This document shows, in pieces, positions 20,894-40,397 of a stretch of DNA of 64,000 nucleotides (positions are counted from its first letter, which is position 1; each line of letters starts with the position of its first letter). Source of the stretch: Hysterium pulicare CBS 123377. Lineage: Eukaryota > Ascomycota > Dothideomycetes > Hysteriales > Hysteriaceae. The position numbers and the translations under genes were made by a program. Below the pieces are notes generated by a model. That model had not been told where the DNA came from. It did not search any database and was given only the letters and a program-made list of their open reading frames with translations. Location: assembly GCA_000467715.1 (NCBI GenBank), contig AJFK01000171.1:61748-125747 (forward strand), written 5' to 3'.

Positions 20894-23800
20894 ATGAGTT
20901 TTATCAGCCGCTTCCTTGCATCAATCGTCTCAGGCCACCAGGAAACGAATCTGTCGCTGGCTGAAATCAATTTCGATTTCTCCCTCGTGAAAGCGAGTGT
21001 CCATGCTCCTTGAACACTTCTATCTACTAACACTCTCCTAGTTTGAAGCTCCACAGGAGTTTCACGGCCTCGGGGCTGTGCTCTCTCCTCGACGAAAGGC
21101 CGAGGCTGAAAAAGGAACATGCCACGTGACTGCCCGGAAACTTGGCGCCTTGTTTGAGGGCCTTATTCCAGGCACGCCCAACCTATTGGAAACATACGGG
21201 AATCGAGTTTCAGAAATCGCCGAACATCTTGACATAAAGGAGGTTCCGCCTCAAGTTTATGGCATATTCACCGACCAAGCTGGCGTTGACGGGACCAGCA
21301 TTTGGGCTGCCGCAACCTCGGGAAAGGGAGCGATTGCTGTTCATCTACTCGCGTGCATGTTGGCTCGCATGTGGTCGGCTGGTGAAGCAACAGCAATTTG
21401 GGTGGAATTGGTTGAAGAACGTAAACGTGAACTTGTCAACAAGGAGCCCTCTGACCCAGCTTATTTCTCGGCCTCCTCATTGCTTGCCTCGCAAATTCTT
21501 ATATCGGAAGTACAACTAGCTGAGTGGGATAATAGTGCCAGAGCTTGGCTGAGAGCTGCAGATGAAATCAAGCTCCTGCAACAAAAACAGCTATTGCTCT
21601 TGGTCAGAAATATCACGATTCCAGTGAACGGCGATGACCGAAATACGTATCGGAGTGTAATTCGTGCGTGGAAAATGGCACTACAGCTTATGGAAAAGAT
21701 CCTTTCGGGAGCTCCTCAGAATGTTCGCGATGGAGATCTTCTGCTTGCTCTGGCGAGCTGGCACATCTATCCAGACCTACATGTATGCGCTACACGAAGA
21801 GCTGACACTTGATCAACAATAAACGGGCAAGATCTGACTAGCATTTAGATTCTTGGAAACCAACCGACGCGGCAAAATGATGCGTTAGTCCCTCCTGGCG
21901 GCGTCCTCACAATTGGCCTGGAAAGCTCCCCAGCTCAAAGAGAAGAAGAAGGAGTTTTTTGGTCTCTTCCACTTGCACAGTATCGATTCTACGGGAGACC
22001 AATAATGTCGAAACGGTCTATCTGCATTGATTCCGAGAGATTTTCGCTGGATGACTTCCTCCAAGTTGCTTTAGGAAGTTTCCTAAGTAACTGGAAGGAT
22101 GCTGAATACAAAACCCTTGATCATGCTCGTGTTCTGGCTAGTCTGGGGATGTTTCTGGACACACTTCCGAGCGCTTCCAACCAAGAAGCCCCCGATTCTG
22201 GAGAGATAAGAGAGAATCACAGCAGCAATGAAGGCATTGACGTGCCTTTAGATCCGAGACCTAGTGGATCTTTCGGTTGGTTAGGGCTCCTTGCTTCCAC
22301 CGCTGAAAGTCTTTACACTTCCAGTGGCCTTCAGAAGGAAATATCTCTCAAACAAGTCAAACTTGGCCAGAGAAGAGGGAGGGCACTTCTCGGCAATCCG
22401 CCCCCAATGTTCGGCCTGACGGTTATGGCGACCTTTCTGGACTTACTGAAAGGTTCTGAAGAGAGGGTTACTGCTCTGCGTAGACTAGCGTCCCGTTTTG
22501 CTGAATGGTACCCTATAGAAAATAGGGATATTGTTATTTGGTACAGGGCCGACATCCCTAAGCTACCTAAAGGCATTGAGGACGAGGAAGGGTCGGGTAA
22601 CGCGTCGAGCAAGCCAAAAAAGAAATTGAAGAAGCTTAGAAAAGTCCGTTCGGAACCATTTCGTCCAATACCAGAAGCACCTCATTTGGGACAGTATGAT
22701 GAGGGCACCTATGAATTAGCTTCTGCTCTACCTTCGATCCACCGACCTGCAGATGAGAGTTTAGGTCGCTCGCAATGCCCATCGACAAGCCACGAACGCT
22801 GGATGCACTTGGAAAAGAAATCCGATACCAAAAGGGCCAGTATTTATACGGCTAACAATGGCGAGATATGCTATTCCATCGAACACTCTCCATATCAACT
22901 AGGTGCCTTCAAAGACCTGGTAACCTATAACGATACCTGTGGTATTTTGATCAACACAAGACCTATGAGAAGTAAGGACCTAATTGCTAATGATGAAGTT
23001 GTCACTCTTGAAGATGTTGAGTGGGCCATAGCATCTCAGGCCTTTGATCCGCAGAAGATTATCCAATACTGCGGTGGGCTTTCTACCTATGGCGAGGTTG
23101 GGACGTCTCTGAGGGCACTTGTCACGATTGCTGACACGTTGCGTAATACGTCGGGTTTGGCAATAGCGCCAAAAGTAATATCGTGGCCGTTGAGTAAAAA
23201 AAGGTGGTGTCAAAGTGCGATCGCGAACGAATCGGATAGCCCTATTTCAGAGGAGGAATCCTTGCCGGACGTTCCTCGCGGCCTCAAATCTTTCCGGCTT
23301 TCCAGAGGAGAGACTTTTGCCTTACTGGCTTTCTTGGAGTCCGGTGAGTTGGATCCTAACCCCGAAAACCTGAACTCTGTAATGGCAATGGCTTCTGGAG
23401 ACTCAATCTACGCCTCAGCCGCACTGCTCATGGATCCACTGGAGGGCGCGGCCGTCGATCCTTCCGCTGTCAAACGGATCAGGGGAAATGTCGGAAAGCC
23501 AGGCATCGCTATGCTGATTCCCCCTCCCGGCGACCCCTTAGTTAAGGAGCGAAACGAGGCCGATTGGAAACTTATAAACCATTCTCCTTTCAACGGCAAA
23601 CTAGAAGACTGCTTTAGCCGTACATCGCTTCATCTTTCCCTGACAAACTTCTGCCTTCCCATCGATACAAGCCATTATGGCCAAAGGTTTACGGAACTGT
23701 GCTTCTTAGAAGCTGCCGTATCTGTCCACGATAGAGGGAAATGGATCGCCGACTTGGATGTCCTCTCTTCATTGGCCAAGATTTCACTGGAAAGGCCTCA

Positions 23801-24083
23801 TGGCCATCGAATGCCTCTGGAGTGTGATCATTCCTCGGATGGAACATTTCCCTTCAAGGCAATTGCAGTGGACAACTGGGACGAATTTCTCGATAAGCCA
23901 ACGTCCTCGTTCATCTTCAGAGCACGGAATAATTGGCTCGCCCGTTTAGCGGCAACAGTCATAAGTCTACATCGAGGCGACCGCACTGTGGTTCTTCCTA
24001 GTGACGTGGATATATGCTGGCACTGCCTGAATAGTCTTTATGAGATGATGGGCTCCGAACAACACTTCGCTCTTATTTGTTAG
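20894..24083 (+). CDS. 1024-aa fungal orphan protein, unknown
   Basis: Three exons: 20894-20992, 21042-21782 and 21849-24083. Intron 1 can be spliced with a GC donor (AAA then GCGAGT) to give FDFSLVKFEAPQEF, or with a GTGAAA donor six bases earlier giving FDFSLFEAPQEF. The second intron (66 nt) joins WHIYPDLH to ILGNQPTRQNDALVPPGG. The protein is soluble-looking: no signal peptide, no membrane helix and no motif I recognise. A lysine-rich stretch near residue 540 (KPKKKLKKLRKVRSE) could be a nuclear signal. Several acidic serine-rich linkers separate apparently globular segments. I recall similar proteins only as hypothetical fungal entries, so no function is offered. Confidence 0.75.
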
Positions 24084-24563: not shown

Positions 24564-27500
24564 TTAAGGACCCCGCACTTCAAGTTTACTCCTCTCAAGG
24601 GCCGCAGTCAATTCATTCTCATCCGTCCCCGACAGTGTCCTAAACAACCTCTGCCTCTCCATGGCCTCCTTATGCTCTCTCAAACTGATTTCAATCGCTT
24701 GCGCCAACGACACTTCATCCTCATCCAAGTCTGGCATCGGTCCAGCAGGAAGTTCGAAGTTGACCTCTGGCGGTGGCGTCGGTGGTCCACGTACGACCAT
24801 GCCAACTCCCGTCCTTCTTGAAACCCAATCGCTGACATCGTTGGGTCCATTGGGATACTGTACCGGGGCTTCTACAGGTTGCGTTTGCGCTTCAATGTTG
24901 GAGTAGGAAGTCGATCTACTGGGAGGAGGGCTGTTGCTGGAGATGGAAAGTTGAGGTGACTTGTTGCCTGCCAGCCTGGCTAGGTTCTCCTGACTGCGAA
25001 GGGATTTTCGTTTGCCGAATAGACGAGGGTGAGTCTCGGGAGCATCTTCCTTGGATGCTAGAGATGTATAAGTTGTGTACGCAATACCGAAGTTAGGTGT
25101 GTTCACTTGCCTGAGCGTTGAAGACTCTCTTCGATCACGAGATCCCGTGGGAAACCGCTGATTGGATAGAGATTTTCACTTCTTCTTCCGTCTCCTAGTA
25201 AGCAAAGAGATATCGTCGTTGCGCCAAGCTGAGGTGATATTTTCACTTCCAATGTGCCCAAGTCGAAGGTCGCAGTCTGAATCATCGCCTCAACCGCCGC
25301 AGGCGTAATAACAACTTTGAATGTATAGTGACTATAGTTCTTTTCCTGCACCAAAAAGTAAGGTTGGAAAGAGGGTTCTTGCTGCTGTCTTAGGAAATCC
25401 CCAAGTTGACGGAGCTCGGAGGAACCATTGGGGAATCGACAACGTAGGTCACCTGTGCAGTGGATCAATACAAGTTTGACGATGTCAGGAGGATGCACTT
25501 ACCCATGCAAACCCAATAAAGTTCCATATCCTTTGGAGTCGAGCGCTTTTCGAAGTAGAAGGAGCTTGCGATAAGGCGATGAGCTACACGCGTTATCTTT
25601 GATTGATACCTGTTACGGAGAGTCTCCTTGACTTTTGTTTGGACGGGCTTGAACTTGGCTTTGTCGTCAAGTTTAGGTACCTGAAACCCCAGGTCGGGGT
25701 TAAATCGTTCGTACCGTCTTCCTTGGGTGGCCGCGCGTGAGCCCATAACTTCCTTGCGGAAGGTGTTCCAGATGCTTTCCGCATCGAGGATATTATCCAC
25801 CCTATTCATCATGACGTTGAGAAACTGGCCGACTTCACTCATCTTTGTCCAAATGCCAAGCCTGTTCTTATCGTTGACCTCCGGATTCACTGCTTCGTGA
25901 AGATTTTGCAGTGGTCGTTGGCGGCGAAGTCTTCGTGTAACTGAGCCGGCTGTTTGCTTCCCGTTATGTCCAGTCCCAAGAGATAAAATTATGTCAGGAT
26001 GCTGGTTATCAACATCCGGCCATATTAATTTGCGTTCATGGTTCGCCACATTTACCGGATTATTATGAAAAAGAGCGCCATCTACAAAACCCTGTTTGGT
26101 CTTGTCGTTCACGAAAGGTTTGAAGTAGGTTGGTGCAGCCGAAGTTGCACGGGCTCTGTATAACGCGATTAGCTAACTTGCCAATAATAGTTCAAGGGAT
26201 TGACGGTCTCATACACTTCCCATAGTTTCATTTCGTGAATTGGATTGTCTGGCCGGATCATTGAGTATGTGGCTAGCGGTGGTTAGTAAATGGTTTTTAC
26301 AACATCTACATCAACGACTCTTACGATAAGCTTCGATTGGGCGGTTATAGTTCGTGAAGATGACTGCACGGTCACCTGTATCAGTCGTGGCTGTAACCGC
26401 CACCTTGGTATGGTAGCTTGCGGCGCTCTCGTGTCGGCCTCCAAATAAGCGCTCGTTCTTGAAAACTTCTTTCAAAGACTCCGCCAGAGGACTTGTCCTG
26501 TAACGATTACCGATTCGCATTCCCGGCAGACGTTTTGTGAAAGCCTTGTCGACGAGCCGTTCAAACTTTTGAATGCAAGTCTCGACTCGCCAGTGTTCGA
26601 CACCTAAGCCTAGAGCTATGATCCCACCCGTACTATAATTAACTTGTCAACCAAACACATGAATAGGCCGAAGAAGAAGTAAGGTCGCACCTGGTCCCAA
26701 CGATCAAGTCGAAAAACTGCTGGATGGGAATCTTGTCTCCGAGAGCTCGTTCAATCTCTCTAAGAACTTCGAGTTCAACTATTCCACGCATGCCGCCGCT
26801 AACCCGATAATGAGCAATACGAACAGTGGAAGGATATAGAACTTGCTCACCCGTCCAAGCTCAACACACGAACGCCTGCCAGCTCCGGCTTCAGACGTAT
26901 GGTCCATTGAGCGGTCGACGCTGTCTCGAGTTCATGCAACGGACAAGCATCCATACAAATTAGCCCTCGATCAGTCCTACCGTAATCCTTTATACAGGGC
27001 GTACATAAAATGTGCCCGCAAGGCAGTGGATGCTCCGGTACTTCTCGAAGGCAGCAGAAGCAGGCTGAATGGCTTATGAACCGTTGAGCGCCTCCAACGC
27101 GGTGGTAAAATTGGTCCATGTTATGGCGATGTAGCCTAGGCACCACAGACTTTTCAGAAGCTTCTCCACTTCCGATACGTAAGTCGCCTTGGAGTGCTGC
27201 GACTCGACTCCGGAGTAAGTCAAACCATTCGACTTCAAAGCTTTCCCAAGAGAACGATGAGTGATAGCCGCCTTCCCCAATGATTTTGCCTTTCGCATTT
27301 TGGTGGCCTTTGGTGTGGCCTTCCTTGAAGTTACAACATTGACCGTATTTGTTTCGGAATCCACAGGGCCAGAACAAAGCGCAGAAGTCATCCAGAGCGC
27401 AGTCGCAATAATCCATGTAATACCGTTCCAGTAGCTGTTCAGCGGGTCCTGTTATCTTTCAGTAAAAGGATAGACGTTCAAAAGTCGGTCAGTAGTCTGT

Positions 27501-29474
27501 AGTCATAAGATCGATCACATGTGAGATGGGGAGGTATCGGCTTAATGCTACTGCTTCAAAAGAGAGGGTTGTTCATACCTTTCAAATCATGACGAACGCA
27601 ATCGAGCATAACACACGAAGCAACCATGACACTTAGTTCTTGAAAAAGTCTCTGAGGCTCAGAGAACTGTTTGGTGTCTCGCATAGCTACTGCAAGCTTA
27701 AGGATGTTCCCCCCGAAATCCAAGGGTATCGGGTTGTTCTTGAAAGCGACGTCCATAAAATTAAATGGCGTGTCTAGATTCTGAGAAAAATGATCGAATG
27801 CGGATTGCAAATAAGTGTGGAGCTCCTCTGAATTGGACAGCATACGAGCCCTCCTTTTCATGTAGTTGGATATTTCACACTTCTTGGTTATCACTCGGTG
27901 TAGCTTTTCAACCTGCTCATCAATAAGCATATAGCGGCCTTTGGTCGGAATTCGAACAACAGTGATCGAAGAGTAGTAGCATTCGAGCAAATCTCGCATC
28001 GTTTCGATTCGTTTACCCCGATCAATCCAGGTTTCCGCATAATGACGGTACCTATGGTCTCTGTCAATGGCTTTTGCAACACTGGACAAGAGAGTTCTTG
28101 TCGCATGCTCGACGTCCCATTCTTTCTGGTCGATAGTACTATCTGTAGCGTTGAGAACGATTATTGCATGGGGTAGCGTTGGTTGATTCAGAGACTTTTC
28201 CACTGATGTGTGTGCCCATCCCAATAGTTTCGACAACACGGAAGATTCGAAAACCCTTATGATATAGATTAGTCAGGGTTCGTAGCCTTATTACTGCGCA
28301 ATTTTATCTCGAGCACTATATCACAGTGTTTCTAGGACATGTGCTAGGTGCTGGTTGTCCAAAGACTTACTTGGGATTCCTCAAGACGAAGACGATCACG
28401 TCAGAAAAAGTGTATAACAACCTAGGATATAACTCCGTCACAGCATATTGTCGTTTCTGAGTATCTGGAGAGCTGACAGATGAAAGTCTATTAGCCACGA
28501 GTATCCGTATGATAAGAAAGAAGGTTTTCGTACTTTGCCCAAGTAATATTTCGTTGCGTGCCTCGGGCAAGCTTGCGAAGCTTTCTATGGTGTCCAGACT
28601 CCGACGAGGCGTTCTCTGGAAACTTCTTGGACTTAGCTGGCTCAGACGTCAAATGCCTTGACGCTATTGGAAGTGTTTCACCTCCTTCGAGACCTTCGCA
28701 ATCTGCGTACAGCATCGGAAGTGGTCCAAAATATGTGCCGGGGTCAGAGTATAGATGCACATCACCAGAAGTTGGTACATTATCGTAGGTCATGCTTCCT
28801 ACAACTGGTGAAGGAAACGCGGCTTCCGAGCCTAAATTTGCCTTGTTTTCCTGTTGGTCAATGAGCATCTTCACGATAGTGCTCTTGCCTGCTCCGGTCT
28901 GCCCAATGAATGACACAAGTTGAGGGTATCTCGTGTTATATGCTTCGCCGGAACTGTTCGCCATGATCGTAGCATATCTGCCATAATCTTGGAAGACCGG
29001 CATACCCGCCGCATCTCGACCAGTTCCAAACCACGTGGTATCTTCATCCTCGATATGTAACGACTGCTGGGTTTGCGGGTCGGCCGGGGGCGTGAGAATG
29101 TCTCGTAATCTATTAACAATTCGTGGATCGGCCTTTTCATGAGGTAGGCCATCCGGCCCAGTCTTCCCTGGTTTATGCGGCCTTTGTTTGTCCCAACAAG
29201 GGCTACAGAACACAGCATCACAATGGACGCAATGAAACGTAGGATCTTCTGACTCGTCACATTCCTCGCAAGGCTTGAAGACTGGTTTCGCCCTGGCAAG
29301 ACGAAGAGTTGGTGCCGGCAGCTCATGTACTTGCGAGGAAGGTGGAAGATCTCTTGGACTCCTGGAAGTCCGAGTAGGGTTTGGCATATCGGAGATAGAT
29401 CTAGCTCGAAAACGGGGTGAACTTGCTTGACTTTCGCCGTGACTGCCTCGGAACGGGGATGCGTGACGTTCCAT
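24564..29474 (-). CDS. Multidomain zinc finger-GTPase-RING-patatin-UIM protein
   Basis: Ten exons: 29474-28534, 28472-28371, 28255-27579, 27448-26851, 26798-26691, 26632-26325, 26272-26215, 26155-25503, 25452-25111 and 25057-24564; 1426 aa, all phases consistent. Order of modules: a disordered Ser/Pro/Arg tail (1-60); a Cys/His zinc cluster (69-100) of B-box or ZZ type; a P-loop GTPase with GQTGAGKST (191-199), DCEG (258-261) and a NATD G4-like motif (about 383-386); a RING-like cluster (703-743) with CGHILCTPC; a patatin phospholipase with DGGGMRG (772-778), GTSTG (catalytic Ser809) and DGA (956-958); and a C-tail with two UIM-like helices (about 1374-1391 and 1408-1422). Patatins hydrolyse acyl lipids with a Ser-Asp dyad; all its key residues are present. 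The last intron is GC-AG. I infer an immune- or stress-type switch that couples GTP and ubiquitin sensing to lipid cleavage. Confidence 0.85.
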
Positions 29475-30766: not shown

Positions 30767-32662
30767 TCAAAGCCTCCTCTTCTTCCCCTGCCACTCCCCG
30801 ACAATCATCTCCGCCGCCCTCTCTGCAATCCCATAAACAACAGTCTGAATATGCGCACTCGGCAAAATGGGCATAACACTAGCATCCACGATCCTCAACC
30901 CTTTGACCCCGTAAACCTTCAACTCGGGATCCACAACGCCCCCATCCTTCTCTGGCCTCAGAGCGCACGTCCCCACCGGGTGATAAATCGTCAAAATCGT
31001 ACTCTTCGCAAAAGCCTCCCACTGCGCATCCGTCTGCGTCGCGTTTCCCGGCTCATACTCCATGGTCCAGACGTCCGACATAGGCGCCGTGTTTGCGATC
31101 TTTCGCATGAATTTCGTGGCGGTCACGGCGGCGGCGAGGTCGTAGGGGTGGGAGAGGTATTTCGGGTCGATGACGGGTTTTGCGGCAAGGGAGGTGGTGT
31201 TTATGTGGACGTTTCCGCGGCTGAGAGGGTGCTGGATGGAGGATATTAGGGTAAAGAATTCTGCGCCGTACAGGGTCGAGTTGGGTAATGGGTAGCCTTT
31301 TACGCCTGTGTAGCCGTCTGAGAAGATGATTTCGAGTTGGGGCACGGTCATGCTGGCGGGTGGGGAGAGGTAGGAGATTTTGGTCTTGTCGACGGCTGAG
31401 GTGTCGGTGTTGTCTTGGGTTGCGAGTGTCGTGAGGGTTGAGGATGTTGAATTGGAGAGAGTGGACCAGTTCATGTAGGCATATCCGCTGCCGGTGTAGT
31501 CCCATTCAGACGGCTTACTCATGTTGTAAAGAGCGAGTTGCATTTGAGCATAAGAGACATTGAACCGGAGGATATCGAAGGAGAGGTAGTCCGGTTTGAG
31601 TTGATAGGAGTTCTGAATACGAATATGGTCTTGGAGGTTCTCGCCGACGCCAGGTAGATCATGGATGACCTTGATACCAAGGCCTGTAAGCCTTGTCTTG
31701 TTCCCAATACCGGACAGTTCGAGGAGGCCTGGGGATTGGAACGAGCCGGTGGAGAGAATGACCTCCTTATTTGCTGAGATAATGGTGCCGTTCTCCAAAG
31801 TAACGCCGCTAGTAGTATTACCCAAAAAGTTAATCTTTGCTACACGAGTATCCGTTATCAGCTCAAGGTTCGCGCTAGCTAGGTTTAGGTACTCTGGACT
31901 ATAAGATCGAGTGTAGTTGCTCGCTCGAATGTTGCTGGGTTGTCGCATGACGCCAATAGGATGCCCGTCCAAAGATTCGTTATTGTAGGGCAACCCAAGT
32001 TTGTTCATTGTAGGTATCCAGGTCAGTTGTTGCTTCGGCAGAATCCTGTTGATCAACGTTTGGATAGGTCCAGTATGTCCAACTCCTTGGGTTCCATACT
32101 CAGGCGATGGTAAAAATGTCTCGCACTTGAGCATAGCAGGATACAGGTTGGCCCAGTTCCATCCCGGGTTCCCCAATTTCTCCCAAGCATCCAGTTCAAT
32201 TGCGGTAGTACGATCCCATGTCATGAGATTGAGAGCCGAACTGCCTCCAAGCACCTTGCCACGGCTTTGGGCGAGAACTCGATTGTTGACATTCGTCTGG
32301 GGGATGGTGGTGAAATTCCAGTCATATTTGGTCCCTAAGGTAGAGCCCTTTTTGCCAGGAATGTAGATGTTTGGTTCATTGCGACCATCCGGACCTGCTT
32401 CAAGGAGAAGTACAGTACTGTTGGGCAAGCCTTGACTGATGCGAGAAGCGACTGCTAAACCCGCGGTCCCTCCACCAATTACGATCTATGGCATGCCGTT
32501 AGGATTGCGGGGTAATTGAGAGGCATATGCTGTTTTGAGTTGACGTACAAAGTCATAAGCTTTTCCCTTGTCATGCGCATCGCGTTTGGTAGGGCCAGGG
32601 GCTGCATTGGCGAGTCCCAGAAACGTCACCAAGATAAGCAATCCACACCAGAGGGTCTTCAT
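30767..32662 (-). CDS. Secreted GMC oxidoreductase
   Basis: Two exons, 32662-32549 and 32485-30767, with a 63-nt intron; 610 aa. The signal peptide is MKTLWCGLLILVTFLGLANA. I use the ATG at 32662 rather than one 24 bases upstream because it opens on the signal peptide. The intron restores YDFIVIGGGTAGLAVASRI, the FAD-binding Rossmann motif. GMC signature 1 is GKVLGGSSALNLMTWDR and signature 2 is GSFQSPGLLELSGIG. The catalytic histidine region is IYHPVGTCAL with a second active-site region SAHIQTVVYG. Many N-glycosylation sequons fit secretion. GMC enzymes of this group oxidise alcohols or sugars, some making H2O2 for lignocellulose attack. The substrate is not readable from the sequence. Confidence 0.9.
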
Positions 32663-37603: not shown

Positions 37604-40397
37604 TCAGCCTTCCTTCCAGCCCTCGTCCTCGCTAAAATCACTCTCCATCCCATCTCCGCTCATTTCTGATGAGTCTTCCGTACTGCTATCCAGAAGAGGT
37701 TTTGAAGCATCGCCATCATCGGAGTTGGAGTCGGAGCCTAGTTCCATTACTCGAGTATGGTCCTCATCGCAATGCTCGCATCTTGATGCTCCGAGTGGCC
37801 ATATTTCTGGATCTTCGAAGTACGGGCAGAACGCCTCTCTACCCTTCCAGATCTCTTCGAAATTCTCCCTAGTATACATGGTTGCGTACTTCGGTATTCG
37901 AGGATGGTTTTGGCGAAAGTCCGTAAGGTTGTAGCCGCATTTAGTTAGGACAGAATCCCAGAGATCCCCTTTGTAGCCACCCAACGAGGCGGCTGAATTG
38001 TATCTGTAGTATGAAGTGTATGCAACTTCCGATACTGTCTTCCCATCGTGCCTCCTGGCGAGAACCTCGGCGCCATTTTGGAGCAAGACCTGTAAACAAG
38101 CCTGTTCTGAGTATGCACACCAAGGGCCCCATATACTTTCTAGAAATATATGCAAACAAGTATTCCCTTCGTTATCTTTGGCGTGAATGTCAGCGCCTCT
38201 ACTCAGAAGGTAACTAAAGACCTGCTTCGAACAATTGCCGTAGTCATTGCTGGCGGACACAAGTAAAGGGGTGCGACCATCTGGGAATCTGTAATCCATA
38301 TTTACAAAGCAGCTATCCTGGTCTAGTATAGTTCGCATATTACTCTTTTCACAACTGTAAGTATGTACTGCACCAAGTGGTCATTTTCTTAGTTCACTTA
38401 CCACTTCATACTTGAGGACCCAGTCCAAAGCAGACATGTCCGAGGATTGAATGAATGCAGTTAGATCAGCACCAGCATCTAATAGAAGCTTGTAACATGC
38501 GAGTCTTTTATGATGGTCCTCGGAATTGGGCTCTTCCAAAATATGACACATTTCCAAAGGTGTTCTAGCGAATAGTCAAGACATATTCCTTGAAAGAGAG
38601 AATCTACGGAGACGAACGACGGCAGAGAGGACGGCATATCAGGCTGAAACTCAAATTCTTCTACATTAGCTCCGTAGTTTACGAGGAATTGACACATTTG
38701 TGGCTGGTTACCAGAAGTAGCGTACTGAGATATCATTAGCTTGAAATGACACTATGAAGATGCAGGTTGAAAGAAAATTTACTCGCATGTAGAAGAGATG
38801 TGCCGCGCCCATCATGATCTCTCAATGACGCATTGCCGCTCTCAAGAAGCACTCTCAGCTCGTCTACTAGCCCAGCCTTGACTACCTCAAAGATGTGGGA
38901 TCCTTCAGGTAGAATGGGATTCGCAAACAAGGTTGGCATTAACATAGTGGCGTAAGTGGATGTTCGGACCTGGTGTGCGGTTACCGCTATCATGGTTCTT
39001 TGCGTTCTTTTGCGAGGCATGATTTTAAGCTTGACGATGAAGTCGTCGGTTCCATCCTCAGTATCGATACTGGTTCGAGCATCTGTACGTAGGATTCGCC
39101 GTCGTTTTTGTGTATGGACCGTCAGAGTACCATCTTCCATGTCGTACTCTTTGGATTTCATTTCCTTTCGGGAAACACTCTCATTTGGCGTCGGACAATG
39201 CCGCTTTGCTGCGGAGATTGTTATTATATACTGCATTAGCTAGACACAAACTTGGTACGAGACGCTTACCTCCTTGGTTAAGCGTCAGGGCTGATGATGA
39301 AAGTAACAATCCACCTATTAGTTTTAATTCACTAGGCTGCTGTACTTGTTCAGACCGCTTGGCGTATGACCGAGGCGTCAGCTTCGTGTTTTGAGCATTT
39401 GCTGTCTTCAATGCAGATCTCAATAGTGTGTCTATACCATTTACTACGTCTTGCATGTGATCCCACGATAAGACACAGCCTTGTTCATTGACGAGCCCAG
39501 AGAGACGTTCGATGCTCTCCGTTAGTTCTGTTTTTGAAGAAGGTGAAGTGCTTCTTTGCGGGGGCTCACTCCTGCATCCGCTGCTGCTAGGAAGGACTGG
39601 GGTACAACTCGATGCGTTAATATTCTTCGATTGTTGATTGACCTGTCCTTGGAGTTTCTCGAGAACTTTAATAGTATCCTAAGATTGTGCCGATAGCAAA
39701 GAAGGAATTTCGGATGTCATTTGGTGGAGCAAGTTGAGGGTGCTGCTGATCTTGTTCAGGTTCTCCTGGGACAGGATATTATCTTCTTGGAGATCACTTA
39801 GGTTACCGTTTATTTCGAATAAGGAATCTCTCTGCTCGGATAAATGGTTTGACGTAGTTGTGTCTCGTTCTGCTTGATCTTGAAGGCTTTGGTCGATTCC
39901 TTCGAGCTTATTGCTAGGCGTGGAGAGGCAATTAGGCTAGGAAAGAAGTCACGGAATTTCCGAAAGACTTACGATTGCAAAAGATTGAGGTGAAGCGTCA
40001 GGGTAGAAATATGCTCACATATAACGGTTCGCATGTGCTCCAACTCCTTTCCGTACATGGTCGTCTTGATTCCGTTCCAGATACGGGTTCCACGATGCTT
40101 GCCAAGTTGCGCTGACCATTTTTGGAGCTGGACCTCGAAGCCCGAAACGTCGTCCTGACATTTCTTGATGACGGACTTGATGGGTGAGAGATTTATTCCA
40201 TCCGCTGGCGCCGCAAGGGCTCGGAGATTCTTCAGCTCGTTAAGAAGAGAGTGTAAACTTCGGCTTGACTCAATGAGTCGCTGAATGTGTTCCGGCGCGT
40301 TTCTGACATCTTGGAAGAGCTCGTAGATGAACTTCGTTGAGCCTAACGCAACGGTGACAAGCGTAAGTACACTCGCTCCAGCACCAACGGCTTCCAT
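37604..40397 (-). pseudogene. Ankyrin-repeat protein with fungal coiled N-domain, degraded
   Basis: The N-terminus (MEAVGAGASVLTLVTVALGS, exon 40397-39973) is the helical domain that opens many fungal STAND/ankyrin proteins, followed by a coiled-coil exon starting at 39913. In that exon the frame meets TAG at 39681-39679 (SAQS, stop, DTIKVLEKLQG) but stays open and coding-like for about 130 more codons. No phase-0 donor exists to skip it, and CAG-to-TAG explains it. A later intron (39269-39209) leads to an ankyrin region. From about 38785 to 38340 the splice phases no longer agree between recognisable ankyrin pieces (YATSGNQPQMCQFL; TPLEMCHILEEP; NMRTILDQDSC). The final exon (to 37604) is acidic. 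It was probably an interaction or self/non-self type protein; now likely decaying. Confidence 0.6.

Follow-up and report, generated by a model that had tools for sequence, protein, structure and literature searches.

Recurrent loss of the lipase nucleophile in a fungal family that joins zinc fingers, a P-loop domain and a patatin domain

Introduction

Patatin effectors under nucleotide switches are known in fungal nucleotide-binding leucine-rich repeat (NLR) proteins, and patatin effectors are known in the bacterial cyclic-oligonucleotide-based antiphage signaling system (CBASS). The gene described here occupies positions 24564-29474, minus strand, of a 64,000-nucleotide stretch of the Hysterium pulicare CBS 123377 genome (assembly GCA_000467715.1, contig AJFK01000171.1, positions 61,748 to 125,747 of the forward strand). 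This stretch is called the window, and all coordinates refer to it. In the family of the window protein, the same kind of patatin effector is combined with another switch and with modules of ubiquitin type. Within the family, the lipase nucleophile is lost recurrently with the rest of the protein preserved, a finding that is new relative to the first-pass annotation of this DNA.

Several described proteins invite comparison. Cell death through Neurospora crassa PLP-1 requires both its patatin domain and its nucleotide-binding motif, and PLP-1 unites patatin and a nucleotide switch in a single fungal protein (PMC12881547), as is predicted for the window protein. PLP-1 has an N-terminal patatin domain, NB-ARC and tetratricopeptide repeats (TPR), whereas in the window protein patatin follows a P-loop domain with a DxEG motif, zinc fingers are present and TPR were not found. 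Sordariales patatin NLRs are almost all of the NB-ARC type (PMC12258605). In Aspergillus fumigatus, incompatibility is controlled by hetC, described as patatin-like and free of other NLR parts, and introduction of the alternate allele gives an aberrant, non-sporulating phenotype (PMC11138114). On this description, which covers the patatin part, the window protein resembles hetC. Five of nine non-NLR patatin genes of Podospora anserina rise with each of two bacteria and three in vegetative incompatibility (PMC4835503); these genes are not known to belong to the family of the window protein. In Trichoderma atroviride, plp1 works together with lox1 in the response to injury (PMC10714772).

Outside these fungal proteins, the best-scoring solved relative of the family's patatin domain is CapV, the cGAMP-activated phospholipase of CBASS. 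The window protein differs from CapV in being eukaryotic and multidomain, and its homologues fall under the CBASS_lipase cut-off; no search for a cyclase partner was made. The family profile also matches the patatin domain of iPLA2beta (PLA2G6). In iPLA2beta, ankyrin repeats precede the lipase, and no RING or GTPase is known. GBP and atlastin GTPases carry a DxEG-type motif. The likeness of the window protein to GBP, atlastin and VLIG, and to bacterial LeoA/LeoBC, consists of this motif and of weak Leo matches, with no significant solved-structure match of the family domain. TRIM proteins have a B-box and a RING together, as this family does, and SPRY, the domain found in five relatives. In contrast to TRIM proteins, the window protein is ordered B-box, P-loop domain, RING, and carries a lipase.

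Results

Gene structure and relatives

The source genome comprises 37.2 Mb in 596 contigs and is fungal, as judged from relatives of the gene product. The spliced translation gives one minus-strand gene of 10 exons encoding 1426 aa in one chain, the same length that the first-pass annotation had assembled. The motifs of that annotation also stand where it had placed them (CxxC pairs from residue 69, GQTGAGKST at 191, DCEG at 258, CFCC at 703 to CPLH at 742-745, DGGGMRG at 772, GTSTG at 807, DGA at 956).

24564-29474, minus strand: whole gene, 10 exons, 1426 aa (spliced model and comparison of junctions with homologues)
29474-28534, 28472-28371, 28255-27579, 27448-26851, 26798-26691, minus strand: exons 1-5 (spliced model)
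26632-26325, 26272-26215, 26155-25503, 25452-25111, 25057-24564, minus strand: exons 6-10 (spliced model)

By inspection, eight introns have GT-AG borders and the last, 25110-25058, has GC-AG. This probable GC-AG intron shows a GCAAGT donor and a CTAAC branch site. The borders of the seventh intron were set by homologues: GT/GTATGA ... TACAG/AGCC restores the shared W/R-E-(A/V)-A-R-A-T-S, found at this junction in most homologues shown. The whole-protein Pfam scan and the first family search were made with a 1431-aa version that differs only around residue 930.

The full-length search with the window protein returned 599 proteins at E ≤ 0.001, 120 of them listed. A second search, with the divergent member P0055, returned 407 proteins, of which 120 were listed, 31 of these new. 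The two lists pooled give the 151 aligned relatives used throughout, and fractions below describe those lists rather than the whole family.

It is hardly credible that the model wrongly joins two adjacent genes, because relatives with identical domain order exist, the very orthologues that the first-pass annotation had proposed looking for. Across the 151 aligned relatives the modules are collinear, some incomplete sequences aside. In the nearest relative, P0001 (70% identity over 97% of the protein), all nine splice junctions align without a gap within 10 residues. P0011 likewise shows no gap within 10 residues, P0010 shows one, and P0044 has small gaps at three junctions. With the gapless junctions of P0001 and the shared module order, we rejected the two-gene reading, and the claim of a single protein stands.

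The patatin domain

26044-26864 (introns included), minus strand: patatin domain, about aa 769-968 (Pfam, PDB profile, PADLOC)

The patatin motifs are DGGGMRG, GTSTG with the nucleophile Ser809, and DGA. The first-pass annotation had called the catalytic set complete, and with the Ser/Asp pair intact and Pfam patatin above its curated cut-off (E = 5.2e-21, 76.2 bits against 27.7, 1431-aa version) the domain is a predicted lipase. The family profile matches CapV (5.2e-26), iPLA2beta (1.6e-20) and patatin-17 (9.2e-13) in the PDB, and homologue P0001 matches the PADLOC model 'Effector, Phospholipase' at 8.8e-41. In the three homologues scanned in place of the window protein, CBASS_lipase is the top NCBIfam match. 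All three (122.7 bits for P0001, 114.2 and 82.3) lie below the NF041079 cut-off of 200 bits, and membership among CBASS phospholipases was rejected on this ground.

Six other patatin frames of the genome served as a control. Two, with DGGG and GTSTG, match PADLOC phospholipase effectors. The four without such a match are two DUF3336 frames, which we take to be Tgl-type, a 285-aa frame and an NTE-type frame that has only the start of the patatin domain and whose matches are to other, unrelated models. Since only certain other patatin frames match, likeness to CapV indicates which type of patatin a frame has and does not prove a defence role.

Recurrent loss of the nucleophile

At position 809, 103 of the 151 relatives have Ser, 38 Gly, 8 Asn and 2 Asp. 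All 48 Ser-less rows retain the P-loop Lys, DxEG and N383, 47 retain seven RING ligands, and 34 retain the catalytic Asp. Among the 103 Ser rows, the P-loop Lys is present in 101 and seven RING ligands in 97. Ser and Asp are both aligned in 96 of 151 rows; the other 55, two of them gapped at one site, have no aligned pair. P0256, P0085 and P0081 keep Ser and lack an Asp where the dyad partner aligns, which may be another sign of lost catalysis.

A 152-row tree was built from GTPase-to-RING columns, with the patatin trait columns excluded. Parsimony on this tree requires at least eight changes between Ser and non-Ser. Two smaller trees each require at least six: one of 121 rows, and a mixture-model tree of 85 rows that omits the Ser rows on long branches together with some of the remaining Ser rows. 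All the trees come from quick searches and contain some long branches, and parsimony gives no direction to the changes. Loss of Ser is the natural reading, because Ser is the rule at the nucleophile position of patatins. The 34-row clade of the window protein has Ser throughout.

The patatin domain is still conserved in Ser-less clades, but its divergence, measured against that of the GTPase region, is faster than in Ser clades, which may be decay. In clades picked from the tree, patatin and GTPase identities are 0.70/0.80 (23 rows), 0.74/0.78 (9 rows) and 0.89/0.91 (3 rows) where Ser is missing, and 0.69/0.69 (24 rows) and 0.76/0.76 (10 rows) where it is kept. Three of 14 hand-picked species with at least two members each (F. 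endolithicus, Z. tritici and A. maeteangense) combine Ser with Ser-less members, which come partly from different strains or assemblies.

The P-loop domain

27883-29039 (introns included), minus strand: P-loop domain with GTPase-type motifs, aa 146-472 (conserved residues in relatives)
28878-28904, minus strand: P-loop GQTGAGKST, aa 191-199 (sequence)
28692-28703, minus strand: DCEG (DxEG, G3-like), aa 258-261 (sequence and conservation)
28141-28152, minus strand: NATD (G4-like), aa 383-386 (conservation of N383)

The P-loop is clear from the sequence. The domain is likely a GTPase because DxEG and NxxD/E motifs are present. These candidates for the G1, G3 and G4 motifs of a TRAFAC-type GTPase (P-loop, DxEG, N-x-x-D/E) are conserved among the relatives: K197 is found in 149 of 151, D258, E260 and G261 in 151, and N383 in 150. 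The P-loop GTPase of the first-pass annotation is a putative one: its motifs are near-invariant, significant PDB matches are missing and the Pfam matches of the window domain are sub-threshold. In the whole-protein Pfam scan, both the P-loop and the zinc-finger matches were below cut-off. Cut-out domains of 12 members matched RsgA_GTPase, MMR_HSR1, ABC_tran and AAA_22 at E ≤ 1 in all 12, Dynamin_N in 7, NPHP3_N in 5 (best 0.0055), nSTAND3 in 4, NACHT in 2 and NB-ARC in 1. PADLOC gave weak LeoBC matches (1e-5 to 2.7e-3) in all three homologues scanned, and LeoA in two. Pfam at E ≤ 1 found no NB-ARC or NACHT domain, and no TPR or other C-terminal repeats, in the whole window protein, so membership among patatin NLRs of the PLP-1 type was rejected.

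Predicted zinc fingers

29139-29270, minus strand: N-terminal B-box/ZZ-like zinc finger, aa 69-112 (PDB profile and Pfam matches)
27303-27365, minus strand: C2H2-type Cys/His cluster C602-C611-H618-H622 (conservation in relatives)
26934-27062, minus strand: RING-like finger, aa 703-745, last ligand His (PDB profile and Pfam zf-C3HC4)

The Cys/His cluster noted at 69-100 in the first-pass annotation is backed by the relatives' profiles as a B-box/ZZ-type finger. Its profile matches the Midline-1 B-box (2.7e-4) and p300 ZZ (8.8e-4) in the PDB, with APC, FYVE and HDAC6 weaker, and Pfam zf-B_box matches 15 of 19 family sequences at E ≤ 0.1. From these matches, B-box and ZZ cannot be told apart. 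The second cluster had been missed; each of its four residues is kept in 147-149 of 151 relatives, and its profile has no PDB match at E ≤ 5.

For the RING-like cluster, earlier given as 703-743, eight zinc ligands with RING spacing can be named (C703, C706, C717, H719, C722, C725, C742 and H745, the last pair being Cys/His). Its profile matches TRAF6, TRIM34 and RNF141, with RING proteins in 52 of the 60 rows shown and APOBEC3G in 8. Pfam zf-C3HC4 is found in 18 of 19 family sequences at E ≤ 0.1, whereas the window RING stays just under the cut-off (20.1 bits against 21). Seven ligands are each kept in 146-149 of 151 relatives; at the eighth, His745, 7 relatives have Glu and 2 have Asp.

The C-terminal region

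25127-25680 (one intron included), minus strand: conserved C-terminal domain, about aa 1090-1257 (alignment)
24672-24725, minus strand: UIM-like helix 1, aa 1374-1391 (pattern; Pfam UIM 14.0 bits, cut-off 21)
24579-24623, minus strand: UIM-like helix 2, aa 1408-1422 (pattern match only)

The best PDB match of the C-terminal domain profile is a cystatin at E = 0.066, which is chance level. A pattern resembling the ubiquitin-interacting motif (UIM) occurs in 25 of 105 tails against 3.1 expected by letter shuffling, a pattern chosen after the window tail had been seen and counted over related rows that are not independent. Tails of at least 40 aa were counted, which dropped 16 of 121 rows. The proposed UIM-like tail is thus enriched, mostly in the window's own 34-row clade (19 of the 25 matches, window included), but it stays below the Pfam threshold: over five tails, none reaches the UIM cut-off of 21, the window protein's tail scoring 14.0 and the best 20.3 bits.

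Breadth of the family

Among the 120 listed relatives of the window protein, database names include FabD/lysophospholipase-like, PNPLA domain, calcium-independent phospholipase A2 and hypothetical. One is named 'Zinc finger, RING-type, patatin-like phospholipase domain-containing protein', and this combination is thus already visible to annotation. The recognised organisms are, we presume, Pezizomycotina, except for one relative labelled Quercus suber, which is taken for a fungal contaminant. SPRY occurs in five listed relatives (P0034, P0037, P0039, P0041 and P0063), two of which also have ankyrin, and SH3 in one (P0062). The Pfam scan places these additions downstream of the patatin domain in P0034 and P0062. 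PF28431, attached to many listed homologues, was absent from a Pfam scan of six, four of them bearing or expected to bear it.

The P-loop domain alone, used as a query, returned 968 proteins of about 180-570 aa, 120 of them listed, with fragments and true short forms unsorted. P0136 from Cladosporium (553 aa, named B box-type domain-containing) matches the P-loop domain with no patatin listed, and could be a short form or an incomplete gene model.

Among the matches listed in a search of open-access main texts, no paper described the GTPase-RING-patatin architecture or its function. The family is large (hundreds of sequence relatives) yet functionally undescribed in the literature searched.

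Paralogues and neighbouring genes

Two paralogues were found in the H. pulicare genome. One, on contig C156 (26800-33500), has the same modules at 50-51% identity in two stretches, and keeps GTSTG (across an intron) and DGA. The other, on contig C94 (13500-20800), is 29-56% identical, mostly 29-40%, in four stretches; the nucleophile Ser and an Asp are kept, and GTSTG runs into a probable intron. The RING of the C94 paralogue ends in CPLD, not CPLH.

The adjoining open frame at 21849-24083 (plus strand) spans 744 aa and has no Pfam match at E ≤ 0.01, and a GMC oxidoreductase lies upstream at 30767-32485 (minus strand). Other scanned frames match MFS, an amino acid transporter, an SSF symporter, amine oxidase, P450, DUF1996, a fungal transcription factor and ankyrin repeats (37604-38380); two have no match.

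Discussion

The window protein looks less like a simple lipase than like a protein of signalling or self-defence. By analogy with fungal PLP-1 or bacterial CapV, the best reading would be a nucleotide-gated, ubiquitin-linked patatin effector. We tentatively favor a signalling protein of the cytosol whose P-loop switch, probably a GTPase, would control a CapV/iPLA2-type patatin phospholipase. Gene structure, domain order and conserved residues are observed; we infer what follows on cellular location, binding of GTP and of ubiquitin, gating, lipid cutting and any role in defence. The C-terminal tail would bring the protein to its target, through ubiquitin-binding helices in the window's clade and, for a few relatives, through a SPRY, ankyrin or SH3 domain. 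The nucleotide-bound P-loop domain would then change shape or assemble, which would place or open the patatin domain. Patatin would cut membrane phospholipid, giving a signal or killing the cell, and the B-box and RING may drive assembly of the protein or attach ubiquitin to it. By analogy, a role in immunity or cell death may be proposed. The idea in the first-pass annotation that nucleotide binding and ubiquitin control lipid attack is plausible on the same footing.

This reading draws on the Ser/Asp pair being intact in the window copy and in both paralogues, and on CapV and iPLA2beta being the best solved relatives of the patatin domain. The P-loop, DxEG and RING ligands are near-invariant, and the C-terminal additions vary. 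PADLOC effectors match two other patatin frames of the genome and not four others, and PLP-1 (PMC12881547) and A. fumigatus hetC (PMC11138114) offer analogues. Several results weigh on the other side. Pfam matches of the P-loop domain include ABC transporters and STAND-type NTPases besides GTPases, its profile finds nothing in the PDB below E = 0.04 (SMG-9 at about 0.1), and the LeoA/LeoBC matches are weak; the GTPase fold is putative. Of the 22 window frames of at least 250 aa, 12 were scanned, and none of these was recognised as a HET or NLR gene. With 48 of 151 relatives Ser-less and an aligned Ser/Asp pair missing in 55 (the two gapped rows included), lipid cutting cannot be every member's job. 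The domain list of the first-pass annotation was right; a reading as a plain lipase effector is weakened by the Ser-less relatives.

The same observations lend some weight to a less probable alternative, in which the family core is a nucleotide- and ubiquitin-linked scaffold. Patatin would then mainly sense or bind lipid, catalysis would be optional, and Ser-less copies would regulate or replace active ones. All 48 Ser-less relatives have the P-loop Lys, DxEG and N383, and 47 have seven RING ligands; the residue changed at least eight times on the 152-row tree and at least six on the two smaller ones. Patatin identity remains 0.70-0.89 in three Ser-less clades, and three of the 14 species carry both kinds of copy. 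Against a scaffold stand the 103 relatives that keep Ser, 96 of them with Asp, the window's clade with Ser throughout, and the somewhat faster patatin divergence of Ser-less clades. Housekeeping or wound signalling, in which released fatty acids would feed oxylipins or membrane repair as proposed for T. atroviride PLP1, is unlikely. The action of plp1 with lox1 after injury is the precedent for it (PMC10714772), but PLP1 may be another patatin. Database names such as FabD/lysophospholipase-like and calcium-independent phospholipase A2 would suit such a role; the zinc fingers, P-loop and UIM-like tail exceed the needs of a metabolic lipase, and repeated nucleophile loss does not suit one. It is improbable that the protein is mainly a RING-type ubiquitin ligase whose lipid-binding patatin and tail would choose targets. 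The retained RING ligands (seven, each in 146-149 of 151), the 52 RING proteins among 60 profile rows and the UIM-like and SPRY tails fit a ligase, but the window RING scores 20.1 bits against a cut-off of 21, and His745 is replaced by Glu (7) or Asp (2).

There is also a bolder reading, which we consider a long shot. The family could be the fungal equivalent of GBP/TRIM cell-autonomous immunity: a phospholipase gated by GTP and able to read ubiquitin would assemble on ubiquitin-marked membranes or intruders and destroy them or the cell. Repeatedly evolved pseudo-lipase copies would then be sensors, decoys or brakes.

Recurrent pseudo-lipases argue that lipid cutting may be only part of the family's role. 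The repeated loss of the nucleophile, with the rest of the protein kept, raises a testable question: what does this protein do without lipid cutting?

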